Assembly: GCF_018100785.1 (NCBI RefSeq)
Contig: NZ_JAGJEC010000001.1
Location: forward strand, 434,001 to 498,000
Direction of reading: 5' to 3'
Source: Maribacter sp. MMG018
GTDB lineage: Bacteria > Bacteroidota > Bacteroidia > Flavobacteriales > Flavobacteriaceae
Length of the DNA stretch: 64,000 nucleotides
The notes under the pieces were generated by a model. That model was not told the DNA's origin. It saw only the letters and a list, made by a program, of their open reading frames with translations, and searched no databases. The translations under genes were made by a program, and so were the position numbers. This document shows, piece by piece, positions 7,828 to 62,498 of this stretch. The first letter of the stretch is position 1. The number at the start of each line of letters is the position of its first letter.

Positions 7828-7906
7828 ATAGAACACATAAGATACCCCTATCTTATTCTTGCCTACGAGTGCTGTTAGAACGGCCTACTTACAAATAAAA
7901 CACTTT

Positions 7907-8386
7907 ATGAAAATGAGATTACGTAATGTAGTCCCTGTTTTATTTGTAATAGTTTTAAGTTCCTGTACCAGCGAGTCTTTAGACGAAACGACGGCACATG
8001 AAGCGGAAAATGTATTTACAGTAGAACAGGAGCTTTTGGAGATTGTGAACGATTACAGATCGTCTGTGGGCGCCGTTCCTTTGAAGTTTAGTGAAATAGC
8101 ATACAAATATGCTAATTCGCATACCGATTACATGATTGAAAAAGGAAGTATAAACCACGATAACTTTAGCTCTAGAGCCTCTAGCATTAATTCAGAGGTC
8201 GGGGTAGAAATAGTTGCCGAGAACGTAGCCAAGGACTACGACACCGCTATAGAAGCCTTTAACGGGTGGCATGATAGTAGTAGCCACAAAAAAACTATGG
8301 AAGGTGATTTTACCCACACGGCCGTAAGTGTAAAGACGGATCCGTCGGGCAATTTTTATTACACCCAATTATTTTATAAAGAATAA
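7907..8386 (+). CDS. CAP (SCP/PR1)-domain lipoprotein
   Basis: A 159-residue secreted protein. The start at 7907 gives a short basic N-terminus and a lipobox VLSSC (Cys near residue 19), so it is predicted to be lipid-anchored. An upstream TTG-initiated extension is possible but would spoil the signal peptide. The rest is a CAP domain: LLEIVNDYRSSVGAVPL, ANSHTDYM, VAENVAKDYDTAIEAFNGWHDSSSHKKTM, and a final YYTQLFYK strand. The conserved His/Glu/His set of the CAP cavity is present. Bacterial CAP proteins are poorly understood, with lipid-binding and peptidoglycan-associated roles suggested. A terminator follows. Confidence 0.85.
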   Translation: MKMRLRNVVPVLFVIVLSSCTSESLDETTAHEAENVFTVEQELLEIVNDYRSSVGAVPLKFSEIAYKYANSHTDYMIEKGSINHDNFSSRASSINSEVGVEIVAENVAKDYDTAIEAFNGWHDSSSHKKTMEGDFTHTAVSVKTDPSGNFYYTQLFYKE

Positions 8387-59317: not shown

Positions 59318-61216
59318 ATGAGTGACGCTATTAAGCACGAGTGTGGTATCTCCGTTATCCGGTTGCTAAAGCCCCTTGAATACTACAAGAAAAAATACGG
59401 ATCGGCATTTTATGGAGTAAATAAAATGTACCTAATGATGGAAAAACAGCACAACCGTGGTCAGGATGGTGCCGGTTTTGCCAGTATAAAACTAGATGTA
59501 GAGGCCGGACAGCGTTACATAAGCAGGGTACGATCTTGTCAACAACAGCCCATTCAAGATATTTTTGCCCAGATAAACGAACGTATCAATTACGAACTAA
59601 AGGAACATCCGGAATACGAAGACGACGTTGCCCTACAAAAAAAGAATATTCCGTATATAGGAGAACTGCTTTTGGGCCATGTGCGCTATGGCACCTTCGG
59701 AAAAAACAGCATTGAAAGTGTTCATCCGTTCTTAAGACAGAACAACTGGATGCACCGTAACCTTATTGTTGCCGGTAACTTTAACATGACCAATGTTAAT
59801 GAGCTGTTCGACAACCTTATTCAACTTGGCCAGCACCCTAAAGAAATGGCCGACACGGTGACCGTTATGGAAAAAATAGGCCACTTTTTAGATGATGCCG
59901 TTGCCAAATTATACAAACAGATAAAAAAAGAGGGGTATACAAAACAAGAGGCCTCCCCATTAATTGCAGAAAGATTAAAGGTTGCCAAGATATTAAGAAG
60001 GGCCGCCAAGAATTTTGACGGGGGGTATACCATGGCCGGTCTATTAGGTCATGGAGATGCCTTTGTACTTCGTGATCCCGCAGGTATTAGACCCGCCTAT
60101 TATTATAAGGACGATGAAATTGTAGTGGTTGCTTCAGAAAGACCTGCCATACAAACTGTTTTTAACGTTCCTTTCGACAAAGTACAAGAGCTCGAACCCG
60201 GTAATGCCATAATCGTAAAGAAAAACGGAAACACCCAGATCAAGCAGATCCTAGAACCCACAGAACGGAAGGCATGTTCTTTTGAACGTATTTATTTTTC
60301 TAGGGGCAGTGACAAAGAAATTTATCAGGAAAGAAAAAAACTCGGCAAACTTGTATTTCCGAAAATACTTGAAGCCATTGACAACGACATAAAAAATACG
60401 GTCTTCTCATATATTCCAAATACTGCGGAAACGTCATTTTTTGGAATGGTCAAAGAAGCCCAAAACTATTTGAACAAGAAAAAGGAAGAGCAAATTCTTT
60501 CTATAGGCTCTAAGATCACAAGTAAGCAATTACATGAAATCTTGGAGGTTAGACCCAGAATTGAGAAGGTCGCCATCAAAGATGCCAAACTAAGGACATT
60601 TATTACCCAAGACGATAGTAGAGACGACCTTGTCGCCCACGTATACGATATCTCTTATGGATCTGTAAAAAAAGGGGACAACCTAGTCATAATAGATGAT
60701 AGTATTGTAAGAGGTACAACACTTAAGAAAAGTATTTTAAAAATCTTAGACCGTCTGTCTCCAAAAAAGATAATAGTGGTCTCCTCTGCGCCACAAATCA
60801 GATATCCGGACTGCTATGGCATAGATATGGCCAAACTAGAAGACTTTATCGCTTTTAAGGCAGCACTTGCCCTGCATAAAGAAAATAATACGATGCATAT
60901 TGTAGAGGACATCTATAAAAAATGTATTGACCAGGTTAAATCGAAAGACAAAGATGTCATCAATTATGTAAAGGATATTTATAGCCCGTTTTCGCCAGAT
61001 CAAATCTCTGCCAAAATTGGTGAACTTTTGAGTCCACCGGACATAAAAGCAGAAGTACAAATTTTATATCAGAGCGTACCTAGCCTGCATGAAGCTTGTC
61101 CAAAAAATCTTGGCGACTGGTATTTTACAGGGAATTATCCTACCCCAGGTGGAAACAGGGTGGTAAATAGGGCATTCATTAATTTTTATGAAGGTAAGAA
61201 CGAACGTGCCTACTAA
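59318..61216 (+). CDS. purF: Amidophosphoribosyltransferase, long Bacteroidota form
   Basis: PurF makes 5-phosphoribosylamine from PRPP and glutamine, the first committed step of purine synthesis. The N-terminal glutaminase nucleophile is Cys9 (HECGIS), behind an eight-residue propeptide. The PRTase loop VIIDDSIVRGTTLKKSIL lies near 465-482. At 632 residues it is about 130 longer than the E. coli enzyme, with extra helical segments between residues ~75 and 210 and a C-terminal extension. This form is common in Bacteroidota. It is separated from the PfkB gene by a terminator, so probably uses its own promoter. Confidence 0.93.
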   Translation: MSDAIKHECGISVIRLLKPLEYYKKKYGSAFYGVNKMYLMMEKQHNRGQDGAGFASIKLDVEAGQRYISRVRSCQQQPIQDIFAQINERINYELKEHPEYEDDVALQKKNIPYIGELLLGHVRYGTFGKNSIESVHPFLRQNNWMHRNLIVAGNFNMTNVNELFDNLIQLGQHPKEMADTVTVMEKIGHFLDDAVAKLYKQIKKEGYTKQEASPLIAERLKVAKILRRAAKNFDGGYTMAGLLGHGDAFVLRDPAGIRPAYYYKDDEIVVVASERPAIQTVFNVPFDKVQELEPGNAIIVKKNGNTQIKQILEPTERKACSFERIYFSRGSDKEIYQERKKLGKLVFPKILEAIDNDIKNTVFSYIPNTAETSFFGMVKEAQNYLNKKKEEQILSIGSKITSKQLHEILEVRPRIEKVAIKDAKLRTFITQDDSRDDLVAHVYDISYGSVKKGDNLVIIDDSIVRGTTLKKSILKILDRLSPKKIIVVSSAPQIRYPDCYGIDMAKLEDFIAFKAALALHKENNTMHIVEDIYKKCIDQVKSKDKDVINYVKDIYSPFSPDQISAKIGELLSPPDIKAEVQILYQSVPSLHEACPKNLGDWYFTGNYPTPGGNRVVNRAFINFYEGKNERAY

Positions 61217-61251: not shown

Positions 61252-61284
61252 TTCATCGATAAAACAGGTATTTCATCGATGAAA
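61252..61284. promoter_or_regulatory. Repeated TTCATCGAT boxes upstream of sRNA copy 1
   Basis: TTCATCGAT occurs at 61252-61260 and again at 61272-61280, exactly 20 bp apart; the second is part of a perfect palindrome TTTCATCGATGAAA (61271-61284). It is about 26 bp upstream of the -7 element of the first small RNA copy, a position suitable for an activator. Confidence 0.45.
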
Positions 61285-61309: not shown

Positions 61310-61317
61310 TATTTTTA
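61310..61317 (+). promoter_or_regulatory. -7-like element of sRNA copy 1
   Basis: TATTTTTA lies 6 bp before the conserved CCATAGC start of copy 1; one base differs from TAnnTTTG. Confidence 0.5.
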
Positions 61318-61323
61318 AGCTTG

Positions 61324-61394
61324 CCATAGCATAAGTAGGTTAAGTTCATGGTAAGATTTGGGGAAAAAAGGTGGAGCTATGCTCCGCCTTTTTT
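61324..61394 (+). ncRNA. Candidate small RNA, copy 1 of 3
   Basis: This 71-nt unit starts CCATAGCATAAGTAGG and ends with an intrinsic terminator (GGTGGAGC-TAT-GCTCCGCC and six T). CCAT near the start can pair with ATGG 24 nt later to form a wide-loop hairpin, and a single-stranded TAAGATTTGGGG follows. No start codon with a plausible frame is contained. It is identical to copy 2 over the first 56 nt. The -7-like element upstream and the terminator imply an independent transcript. The flanking sequence is not conserved between copies, so selection acts on the unit itself. Confidence 0.78.
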
Positions 61395-61519
61395 ATTTAA
61401 CACCCTTTTTATAGAAAGCACTTCTTTACCTTATTTGTAAGAGAATAAAACAACTAGGGTATTTCAACCAAGGTTTAAGTCTTTTGGCTAATACCTTTTT
61501 CTTGCGGACACACAAGCTA

Positions 61520-61527
61520 TATCTTTG
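61520..61527 (+). promoter_or_regulatory. Perfect -7 element of sRNA copy 2
   Basis: TATCTTTG (TAnnTTTG), 5 bp before CCATAGC of copy 2. A TTTTTCTTG lies upstream at 61496-61504. Confidence 0.7.
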
Positions 61528-61532
61528 AAGGA

Positions 61533-61603
61533 CCATAGCATAAGTAGGTTAAGTTCATGGTAAGATTTGGGGAAAAAAGGTGGAGCTACGCTCTGCCTTT
61601 TTT
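61533..61603 (+). ncRNA. Candidate small RNA, copy 2 of 3
   Basis: Also 71 nt, starting CCATAGCATAAGTAGG and ending in GGTGGAGC-TAC-GCTCTGCC plus six T. Relative to copy 1, the terminator differs at two bases: one in the loop and one that turns a G-C pair into G-U, so the stem is kept. It has the best promoter of the three. It begins 209 bp after the start of copy 1. The DNA between the two is unrelated, apart from a short TTAACACC stretch directly behind each terminator. Confidence 0.8.
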
Positions 61604-61717
61604 ATTTTAACACCAAAAGTGCCTACATTCAGATAGTTAACTTCTTTAACAGAAATAACCTCATTAGGGAAAAGGAATTTTTTTTAACATTTCTTTTTTT
61701 ATTTCCCACAATACCAG

Positions 61718-61725
61718 TATTTTAG
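61718..61725 (+). promoter_or_regulatory. -7-like element of sRNA copy 3
   Basis: TATTTTAG, 5 bp before CCATAGC of copy 3; one base from TAnnTTTG. Confidence 0.5.
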
Positions 61726-61730
61726 TGTCG

Positions 61731-61800
61731 CCATAGCATAAGTAGGTTAAGTTTATGGTAAGATTTGGGACGAAAAGGGTGGAGATTTCTCCACCCTTTT
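61731..61800 (+). ncRNA. Candidate small RNA, copy 3 of 3
   Basis: A 70-nt diverged copy. The first 23 bases equal those of copies 1 and 2, then one C-to-T change, then ATGGTAAGATTTGGG is kept. The terminator is a different but equally stable stem (GGGTGGAG-ATTT-CTCCACCC, four T). Because the stem changed on both arms while pairing was kept, the structure rather than the sequence is conserved. It starts 198 bp after copy 2. Confidence 0.78.
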
Positions 61801-61821
61801 CTATTTCTTAAAAACAAAAAA

Positions 61822-61889: not shown

Positions 61890-62498
61890 TTATTTGTTCT
61901 CTGCGTACAACCTAGAAACTTCTTCCCAGTTAATGATATTAAAGAACGCACTGATATAATCTGGTCTCTTATTTTGGTAATTTAGATAATAGGCATGTTC
62001 CCATACATCCAAGCCAAGAATAGGCTGTCCTCCACAACCAACACCTGGCATAATCGGTGTATCTTGGTTCGGAGTAGAACAAATTTCCAGTTTACCTCCT
62101 TTGTGAACACATAACCAAGCCCAACCAGAACCAAACCTGGTAGCTGCTGCAGCGCTAAATTTTTCTTTGAACCCTTCAAAAGAACCAAAGGCACTGTTTA
62201 TTGCATCTGCCAACTCCCCTGTTGGAGCTCCACCTCCGTTTGGTGATAACATGGTCCAGAACAAAGAGTGATTGTAAAAACCACCTCCGTTATTTCTTAC
62301 CGCACTGTTGTTCATGTCCAATCCGGTCAAAATATCTTCAATAGATTTTCCTTCTAAATCCGTACCCTCGATAGCGGCGTTCAATTTAGTAGTATATCCA
62401 TTGTGATGTTTTGTGTGATGTATTTCCATAGTCCTTGCATCTATGTGCGGTTCTAAAGCATCATATGCATAGGGCAATTTTGGTAATTCAAAAGCCAT
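61890..62498 (-). CDS. Superoxide dismutase (Fe/Mn family)
   Basis: The 202-residue cytoplasmic enzyme converts superoxide to peroxide and oxygen. The start [35 protein letters not shown] supplies the first metal histidine (His27), the second lies in [13 protein letters not shown], and [11 protein letters not shown] supplies the Asp and last His. The segment [12 protein letters not shown] is slightly longer than usual around the metal loop. Iron or manganese preference cannot be safely assigned by eye. It faces the small RNA array with two hairpins between. Confidence 0.95.

Follow-up and report, generated by a model that had tools for sequence, protein, structure and literature searches.

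Introduction

LhrC, PrrF1/2 and Qrr are tandem multicopy small RNAs (sRNAs), near-identical to each other and resembling the array described here in dosage and promoter diversification, but they belong to other phyla and their sequences were compared with it through Rfam only. The enterobacterial RybB, MicA and MicL block outer-membrane protein and lipoprotein targets at the translation start, like the class proposed below, which differs from them by its two-block pairing; we know of no relation between these envelope sRNAs and the present family. Flavobacteriaceae are a large marine and soil family, in which post-transcriptional control is, to our knowledge, little known.

Within the Bacteroidota, one report (PMC11697453) describes FopS of Bacteroides thetaiotaomicron as 14 paralogous sRNAs of about 65–70 nt, the 5' end of which pairs at the susC start codon and blocks translation. 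FopS/GibS (Rfam RF04319; PMC11697453) shares with the family described here the multicopy nature, the length of about 65–70 nt, a common 5' region, own promoters, the bacterial phylum and the start-site pairing on surface-protein mRNAs; FopS is, however, found at several loci, whereas the present family occupies one tandem locus, carries two pairing blocks and shows no enrichment of SusC leaders among its predicted targets. Rfp18 from Flavobacterium psychrophilum (PMC9723704) is likewise a conserved flavobacterial sRNA with predicted mRNA targets, but it is described there as pairing via its third stem-loop, while the present unit consists of one weak hairpin and a terminator; on this description the two appear to differ.

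The array and its genomic neighbourhood

The window—the whole stretch of 64,000 nucleotides from Maribacter sp. MMG018 that was analysed—contains three 71-nt units on the forward strand, starting at 61324, 61533 and 61731 (spacing 209 and 198 nt) and flanked by purF and a superoxide dismutase (SOD) gene. The features, with bit scores and E-values in the own genome from the covariance model (CM) introduced below, are as follows:

59318..61216, + strand: purF (amidophosphoribosyltransferase), conserved left neighbour (TIGR01134, 128.9 bits, under the cut-off of 350; synteny)
61324..61394/61398, + strand: sRNA copy 1, type II body (CM 84.8 bits, E 1.7e-17)
61533..61603/61607, + strand: sRNA copy 2, type II, 97% identical to copy 1 (CM 80.6 bits, E 1.8e-16)
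61731..61801/61805, + strand: sRNA copy 3, type III with T at position 24 and a GGGACG linker (CM 102.4 bits, E 6.4e-22)
61890..62498, − strand: Fe/Mn SOD, conserved convergent right neighbour (NCBIfam SOD models, under their cut-offs; synteny)

Copies 1 and 2 are identical over their first 56 nt, and copy 3 retains the first 23 nt and ATGGTAAGATTTGGG, so that the three paralogous units of the preliminary description are present with the identities given there. The SOD of the window is 98% identical to that of M. thermophilus. No DNA-level copy beyond the three units was found in the own 4.13-Mb genome, and a fourth weak match of the covariance model corresponds to the region of copy 3 on the opposite strand. 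An inverted repeat (TTCATCGATAAAA / TTTCATCGATGAA) without a T-run is positioned at 61252-61283, between purF and copy 1.

Concerning the related loci, purF and/or SOD adjoin 114 of the 118 arrays (both at 78, one at 36 and neither at 4, many of the 36 being truncated where the retrieved sequence stops). Wherever seen, purF always precedes the array and SOD always faces it. Since this is one syntenic place, the array represents a fixed address and not a spreading element. The number of copies per locus ranges from 1 to 6, in stretches that are possibly cut. The highest count, ten model matches, belongs to one genome (G056, locus L123), where some may be opposite-strand matches to the terminator.

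Three subtypes can be distinguished by the linker, i.e. GGGGC in type I, GGGGA in type II, and GGGAC/T together with T at position 24 in type III. The order I-II(1-4)-III is present in 57 of the 117 typed loci (31, 19, 5 and 2 of them with 1, 2, 3 and 4 type II copies, respectively); 11 others are II-III, 26 consist of a single type I, and the remainder exhibit other short forms. In each of the 74 typed loci that hold a type III copy, no further copy is seen after it. The array in the window is II-II-III. The promoter of its copy 1 ends in TTG like those of first copies, its body being nevertheless of type II, which suggests, from the sequence pattern, that this copy may have arisen by gene conversion.

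Distribution and conservation of the family

A covariance model was built from 38 units. At E ≤ 1e-10 it matched 120 of 149 Flavobacteriaceae genomes, and at E ≤ 0.01 it matched 128 of 149 (8 of them weakly), the latter covering 127 of the 148 genera sampled; it should be noted that the E-values of this search are rough. The search reached the family and order levels, and in the order-level sample (148 genomes) matches at E ≤ 1e-10 were confined to genomes labelled with the same family, nothing convincing being found outside. The best weak matches outside the family scored 42 and 39 bits, and the five that were read proved to be AT-rich sequence with a terminator. At least 117 public genome stretches contain the exact 22-nt core, and the repeat is therefore far beyond chance. 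Among the matches listed (80), the named stretches with this core bear Flavobacteriaceae or generic names, except for one bin labelled 'Algicola', which is probably a misnomer. The proposal that these units form a multicopy sRNA family is supported.

About 39 nt of the unit are nearly fixed across the family. Positions 23-39, lying outside the 22-mer by which the loci were selected, are mostly conserved at >99% in 301 units, all from loci with the exact core, the exceptions being position 24, by which the subtypes differ, and 28 units that are shifted by one base. The divergent first copy of one locus (L067, 3999-4070) carries a seed change (AGTAGATTAAG), the sole such case in the 301 units, whose loci were picked for the exact core. 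In the five genomes read from genus g127, presumably Flavobacterium, the stretch after CCA(T) varies in both sequence and length, with TAGTAGGTTAAGTT and TAGATTTGGGG kept.

The Rfam search suggested in the preliminary description gave no match at the gathering score in the whole window (4227 models). Weak matches to sraA, STnc40, HrrF and FopS were obtained with the full-length unit and lean on the terminator; they were rejected, the 5' block alone yielding none. The FopS model (RF04319) reached 17.7 and 16.2 bits against a gathering score of 56; in the own genome it matched nothing at E ≤ 1, and the 5' block alone matched neither Rfam nor FopS at E ≤ 10. Membership in the FopS family is not supported, as the model does not match and the target class differs. 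No report of the family was found among the listed papers on flavobacterial and paralogous sRNAs or among those listed for the seed letters, most subscription papers lying outside the scope of that search. It could be one of the 85 RNAs newly described in F. psychrophilum (PMC9723704). The sRNA family is real and family-wide, and apparently undescribed, the kind of regulator being one already known.

Promoter-like elements, terminators and folding

The elements recognised around the three units are given below:

61310..61317, + strand: -7-like element of copy 1, TATTTTTA (by sequence; the type I upstreams have a stronger consensus, ta.tTtag)
61520..61527, + strand: -7 element of copy 2, TATCTTTG (by sequence; 113 distinct type II upstreams give the consensus TAc.TTTGgAG)
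61709..61725, + strand: promoter block of copy 3, CAATACCAG plus TATTTTAG (conserved in 70 distinct type III upstreams)
61364..61394, + strand: intrinsic terminator of copy 1 (predicted hairpin; two-sided changes in 8 of 13 pairs across the family)

The motif common to the type III upstreams is CaCAATACCAGTAaTTTAG, and that common to the type II upstreams is TAc.TTTGgAG. The TAnnTTTG-like element previously placed 5-6 nt before CCATAGC in every unit holds for copies 2 and 3, copy 1 being a weaker match. A strong hairpin followed by a T-run closes each unit of the window. A promoter of its own together with an intrinsic terminator, the features generally expected of a trans-acting sRNA, can therefore be recognised at the level of sequence.

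The whole units are predicted to fold more stably than dinucleotide shuffles, with z-scores of -3.5, -2.2 and -5.1 for the three copies in the window. Across the 38 units, which were chosen for a common fold and share one terminator geometry, two-sided changes were observed in 8 of the 13 terminator pairs, with 60 covarying cells versus 14.7 in shuffles (0/500 reaching that value) and at most 8 when the alignment was slid; the percentage paired in this alignment is biased because the rows were chosen for the common fold. It was thus correctly noticed beforehand that the terminator stems differ yet stay paired. The selection also assumed for the CCAT/ATGG pairing was not borne out: the 5' hairpin alone (5' 37 nt) is no more stable than shuffles (z about -0.6), and the hairpin is without covariation support because its pairs never vary in the 38 units. 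Selection on the 5' part acts on the sequence.

Predicted pairing blocks and candidate targets

The fixed 5' sequence contains two blocks, here exemplified by copy 1:

61331..61343, + strand: block B, putative seed ATAAGTAGGTTAA, positions 8-20 (complementary to TTAACCTACTTAT at start codons; near-invariant, partly through the selection of loci)
61355..61363, + strand: block A, second pairing block GATTTGGGG, positions 32-40 (complementary to CCCCAAATC in leaders)

Block A is near-invariant except for position 40 and the one-base shift in 28 of 301 units. Leaders of the type CCC[A/G]AATC-N(4-12)-(TTA)ACCTACTTA-ATG hold the complements of TAAGTAGGTTAA and GATTTGGG(G), both fixed in the RNA, and hold them in antiparallel order. 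Neither this second block nor the three subtypes nor the target class appears in the preliminary description, which had suggested the loop TAAGTAGGTTAAG as the target-binding seed; that suggestion is supported by the conserved complementary candidate targets presented in what follows.

With at most one mismatch allowed, 10 genomes contain the antisense 13-mer AACTTAACCTACT at 43 sites that do not belong to sRNA genes. In the pairing orientation, seven sites lie 5-25 nt before an ORF-opening ATG, versus 0/42 in the opposite orientation, the distance window having been chosen after a first reading of the sites and 42 of the 43 entering one test, with the last read separately. Looser criteria give nine start-adjacent sites, which include the P1 gene of the own genome together with its orthologue from another genome of that genus (L185, L252) as well as the lipoprotein family P2 (L245, L248, L258); the leaders of P2 also hold CCCAAATC, the complement of block A.

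P1 is a 148-aa protein with no curated domain, called DUF559 or a short-patch-repair endonuclease by some sources, and P2 is a lipocalin-like lipoprotein unrelated to it. P1 is found in 21 of the 149 family genomes and P2 in the same 21 (27 loci), so that all this evidence comes from one set of 21 genomes. The leaders of both diverge apart from CCC[A/G]AATC and (TTA)ACCTACTTA adjoining the ATG. The two-site pairing score exceeds the 99th percentile of 754 own-genome ORFs in 18/21 P1 leaders (16/19 without the discovery loci) and in 15/25 P2 leaders (12/22 without them), and none of 500 shuffled sRNAs reaches the P1 or the P2 median. The leaders below this percentile are 3/21 for P1 and 10/25 for P2, where some of those scored are distant paralogues or have uncertain starts; two of the 27 P2 loci are without a usable start.

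With the five discovery loci left out, CCCAAATC occurs in 17/41 P1/P2 leaders versus 2/1116 in the background, and ACCTACTT in 9/41 versus 1/1116. The top enriched 7-mers of both gene families, again without the discovery loci, are antisense to the RNA, namely CCAAATC and CCCAAAT, then ACCTACT, and the leading 8-mers are TCCCAAAT (antisense at 7/8 positions) and CCCAAATC. GGTTATA, which is not antisense to the RNA, is likewise enriched in P1 leaders and may be a promoter element. Complementarity to the leaders of genes unlinked to the array is thus conserved within the 21 genomes.

The own-genome candidate targets lie outside the window, P1 at C10:1120927 and P2 at C1:790893 and C1:1762550. 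The predicted dimer energies of these three with both sRNA types were equalled by 0/300 shuffles in each of the six tests. A third, distant P2 paralogue of the same genome (L368) is without the sites.

It may be added that many of the P1 upstream regions (L321-L341) retain (C/G)GGTTATA directly before CCCAAATC; as a possible -10 element, it would make the P1 mRNA begin near the pairing site. By eye, many P2 upstream regions (L346, L348-L351, L354, L355, L357-L360) carry a TCGAATTTTnnCAATAC-like sequence with CGTT ~20 nt later, an arrangement that looks like an ECF-type promoter.

Proposed mode of action

The array is probably that of a multicopy trans-acting sRNA which pairs up to the start codon and represses mRNAs of envelope lipoproteins. 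It would encode RNAs of about 70 nt, each with a separate promoter and terminator. In the cell, GATTTGGG(G) would pair with CCCC[A/G]AATC near the 5' end of the mRNA, and TAAGTAGGTTAA would pair with TTAACCTACTTA immediately upstream of the start codon, in some cases taking in the codon itself. Once bound, the sRNA would cover the ribosome landing site and block translation, mainly of surface (lipo)protein mRNAs, with the several copies providing dose and separate promoter inputs. In place of the link to stress or metabolism suggested earlier as a possibility, the target class looks like surface lipoproteins.

The RNAs could, alternatively, mainly bind a protein, as a sponge or a 6S-like decoy, with the leader motifs bound by the same protein or unrelated. 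We regard this as rather unlikely, notwithstanding that near-total conservation over about 39 nt, combined with multicopy dosage, is unusual for an antisense seed alone, and that RbpB binds FopS in Bacteroides (PMC11697453). Against it, what the leaders contain is complementary to the blocks and not a copy of them, with the two sites in antiparallel order and the genes concerned unrelated. Moreover, pair-keeping (G.U) changes at A and C positions of the leader sites are over-represented (31/63 vs 1340/4410, p 0.0015), in contrast to the pair-breaking T>C changes (17/86 vs 370/2001). This count is based on 40 leaders, six scored P2 leaders (distant or with an uncertain start) having been dropped, and the p values are not independent because orthologous leaders share ancestry.

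Equally improbable, in our judgement, is activation of the targets by the RNA, for instance through an opening of the leader structure or protection of the mRNA. Deletion of rfp18 in F. psychrophilum lowers two metalloprotease mRNAs (PMC9723704), and positive sRNA effects therefore occur in Flavobacteriaceae; the pairing predicted here is, on the other hand, at the start codon, where FopS blocks translation (PMC11697453). Both signs are compatible with the sequence, and repression is the one predicted.

There is very little in favour of the repeats belonging to an extended purF 3'UTR, or being a mobile or interspersed element devoid of a regulatory role: in most loci showing purF, about 105-120 nt separate its end from the start of the first copy, but promoter-like and terminator elements are seen on each copy. 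A spreading mobile repeat, envisaged at the outset as an alternative, is rejected on the basis of the fixed synteny, the lack of further copies in the own genome and the absence of one exact pattern of the array from viral contigs. The units hardly encode a short peptide (ATGGTAAGATTTGGG...), a reading offered by the ATG inside the conserved block and rejected here, since the one-base shift after ATGGTA in 28/301 units changes the frame and the bases downstream are covarying terminator stems.

Returning to the repression of lipoprotein mRNAs, a wider version can be put forward more tentatively, with somewhat less than even confidence, i.e. a core regulon of the Flavobacteriaceae in which the syntenic two-seed multicopy sRNA would be a general surface-lipoprotein repressor, its copies standing under different promoters (type III with CAATACCAG). 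Given the ECF-like promoter on some targets (P2), the sRNA could be joined in a single circuit with an envelope-stress sigma factor, like sigma-E with RybB/MicL. The family suggests that, within Bacteroidota, multicopy sRNAs that occlude the translation start of mRNAs for surface proteins have more than one origin. Experimental work can build on its fixed address, its concrete seed with a further block for pairing, and candidate targets known by name, and it is clear which mutants to construct.

Broader search for targets

The pattern TTAACCTA-N(2-4)-ATGD was counted 326 times in 60 genomes versus 249 for GTAD, i.e. without a clear excess, the former number being inflated by at least 27 listed rows that have the form of sRNA variants. 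The exact two-block pattern gave 88 occurrences versus 104 for the reversed control in 110 genomes, again without a clear excess; the regulon is therefore small or its sites are rare or degenerate. An apparent depletion of the antisense 11-mer against the reversed control was rejected as a sign of avoidance, the Markov expectation in the own genome being 1.4-1.8 and two occurrences being seen outside the sRNAs. SusC leaders were not enriched, 2/22 lying above the 99th percentile with a median of 28.2 vs 26.0 in the background, where the 22 are the matches above the cut-off, of 56. Scanning 864 kb of own-genome sequence revealed a modest excess over shuffled sRNAs (30 ORFs vs a mean of 12.3 and a maximum of 25, at score 34), which is not taken as target evidence, few of the leaders looking right.

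The 60 loci listed from the two broad pattern counts were scanned, and nine have a site adjoining a usable ATG, among them a TonB-dependent receptor (L308), GldK (L316), a CAP lipoprotein (L275) and a DUF6340 protein (L283). Lipobox-like N-termini, called by a home-made rule, are present in 10/18 start-adjacent candidates (the nine from the 13-mer and the nine scanned loci) vs 84/754 ORFs, and in 8/15 after removal of redundancy (p 1e-4). CAP lipoproteins, relatives of one encoded in the window, are candidates in two other genera (L244, L275), most other candidates being from a single genome and weak alone. The window itself holds a suggestive site of this kind:

7882..7891, + strand: possible block-B site GGCCTACTTA, two of its pairs being G.U; it lies in the leader of the gene at 7907-8386 (+ strand), which encodes a CAP-domain lipoprotein
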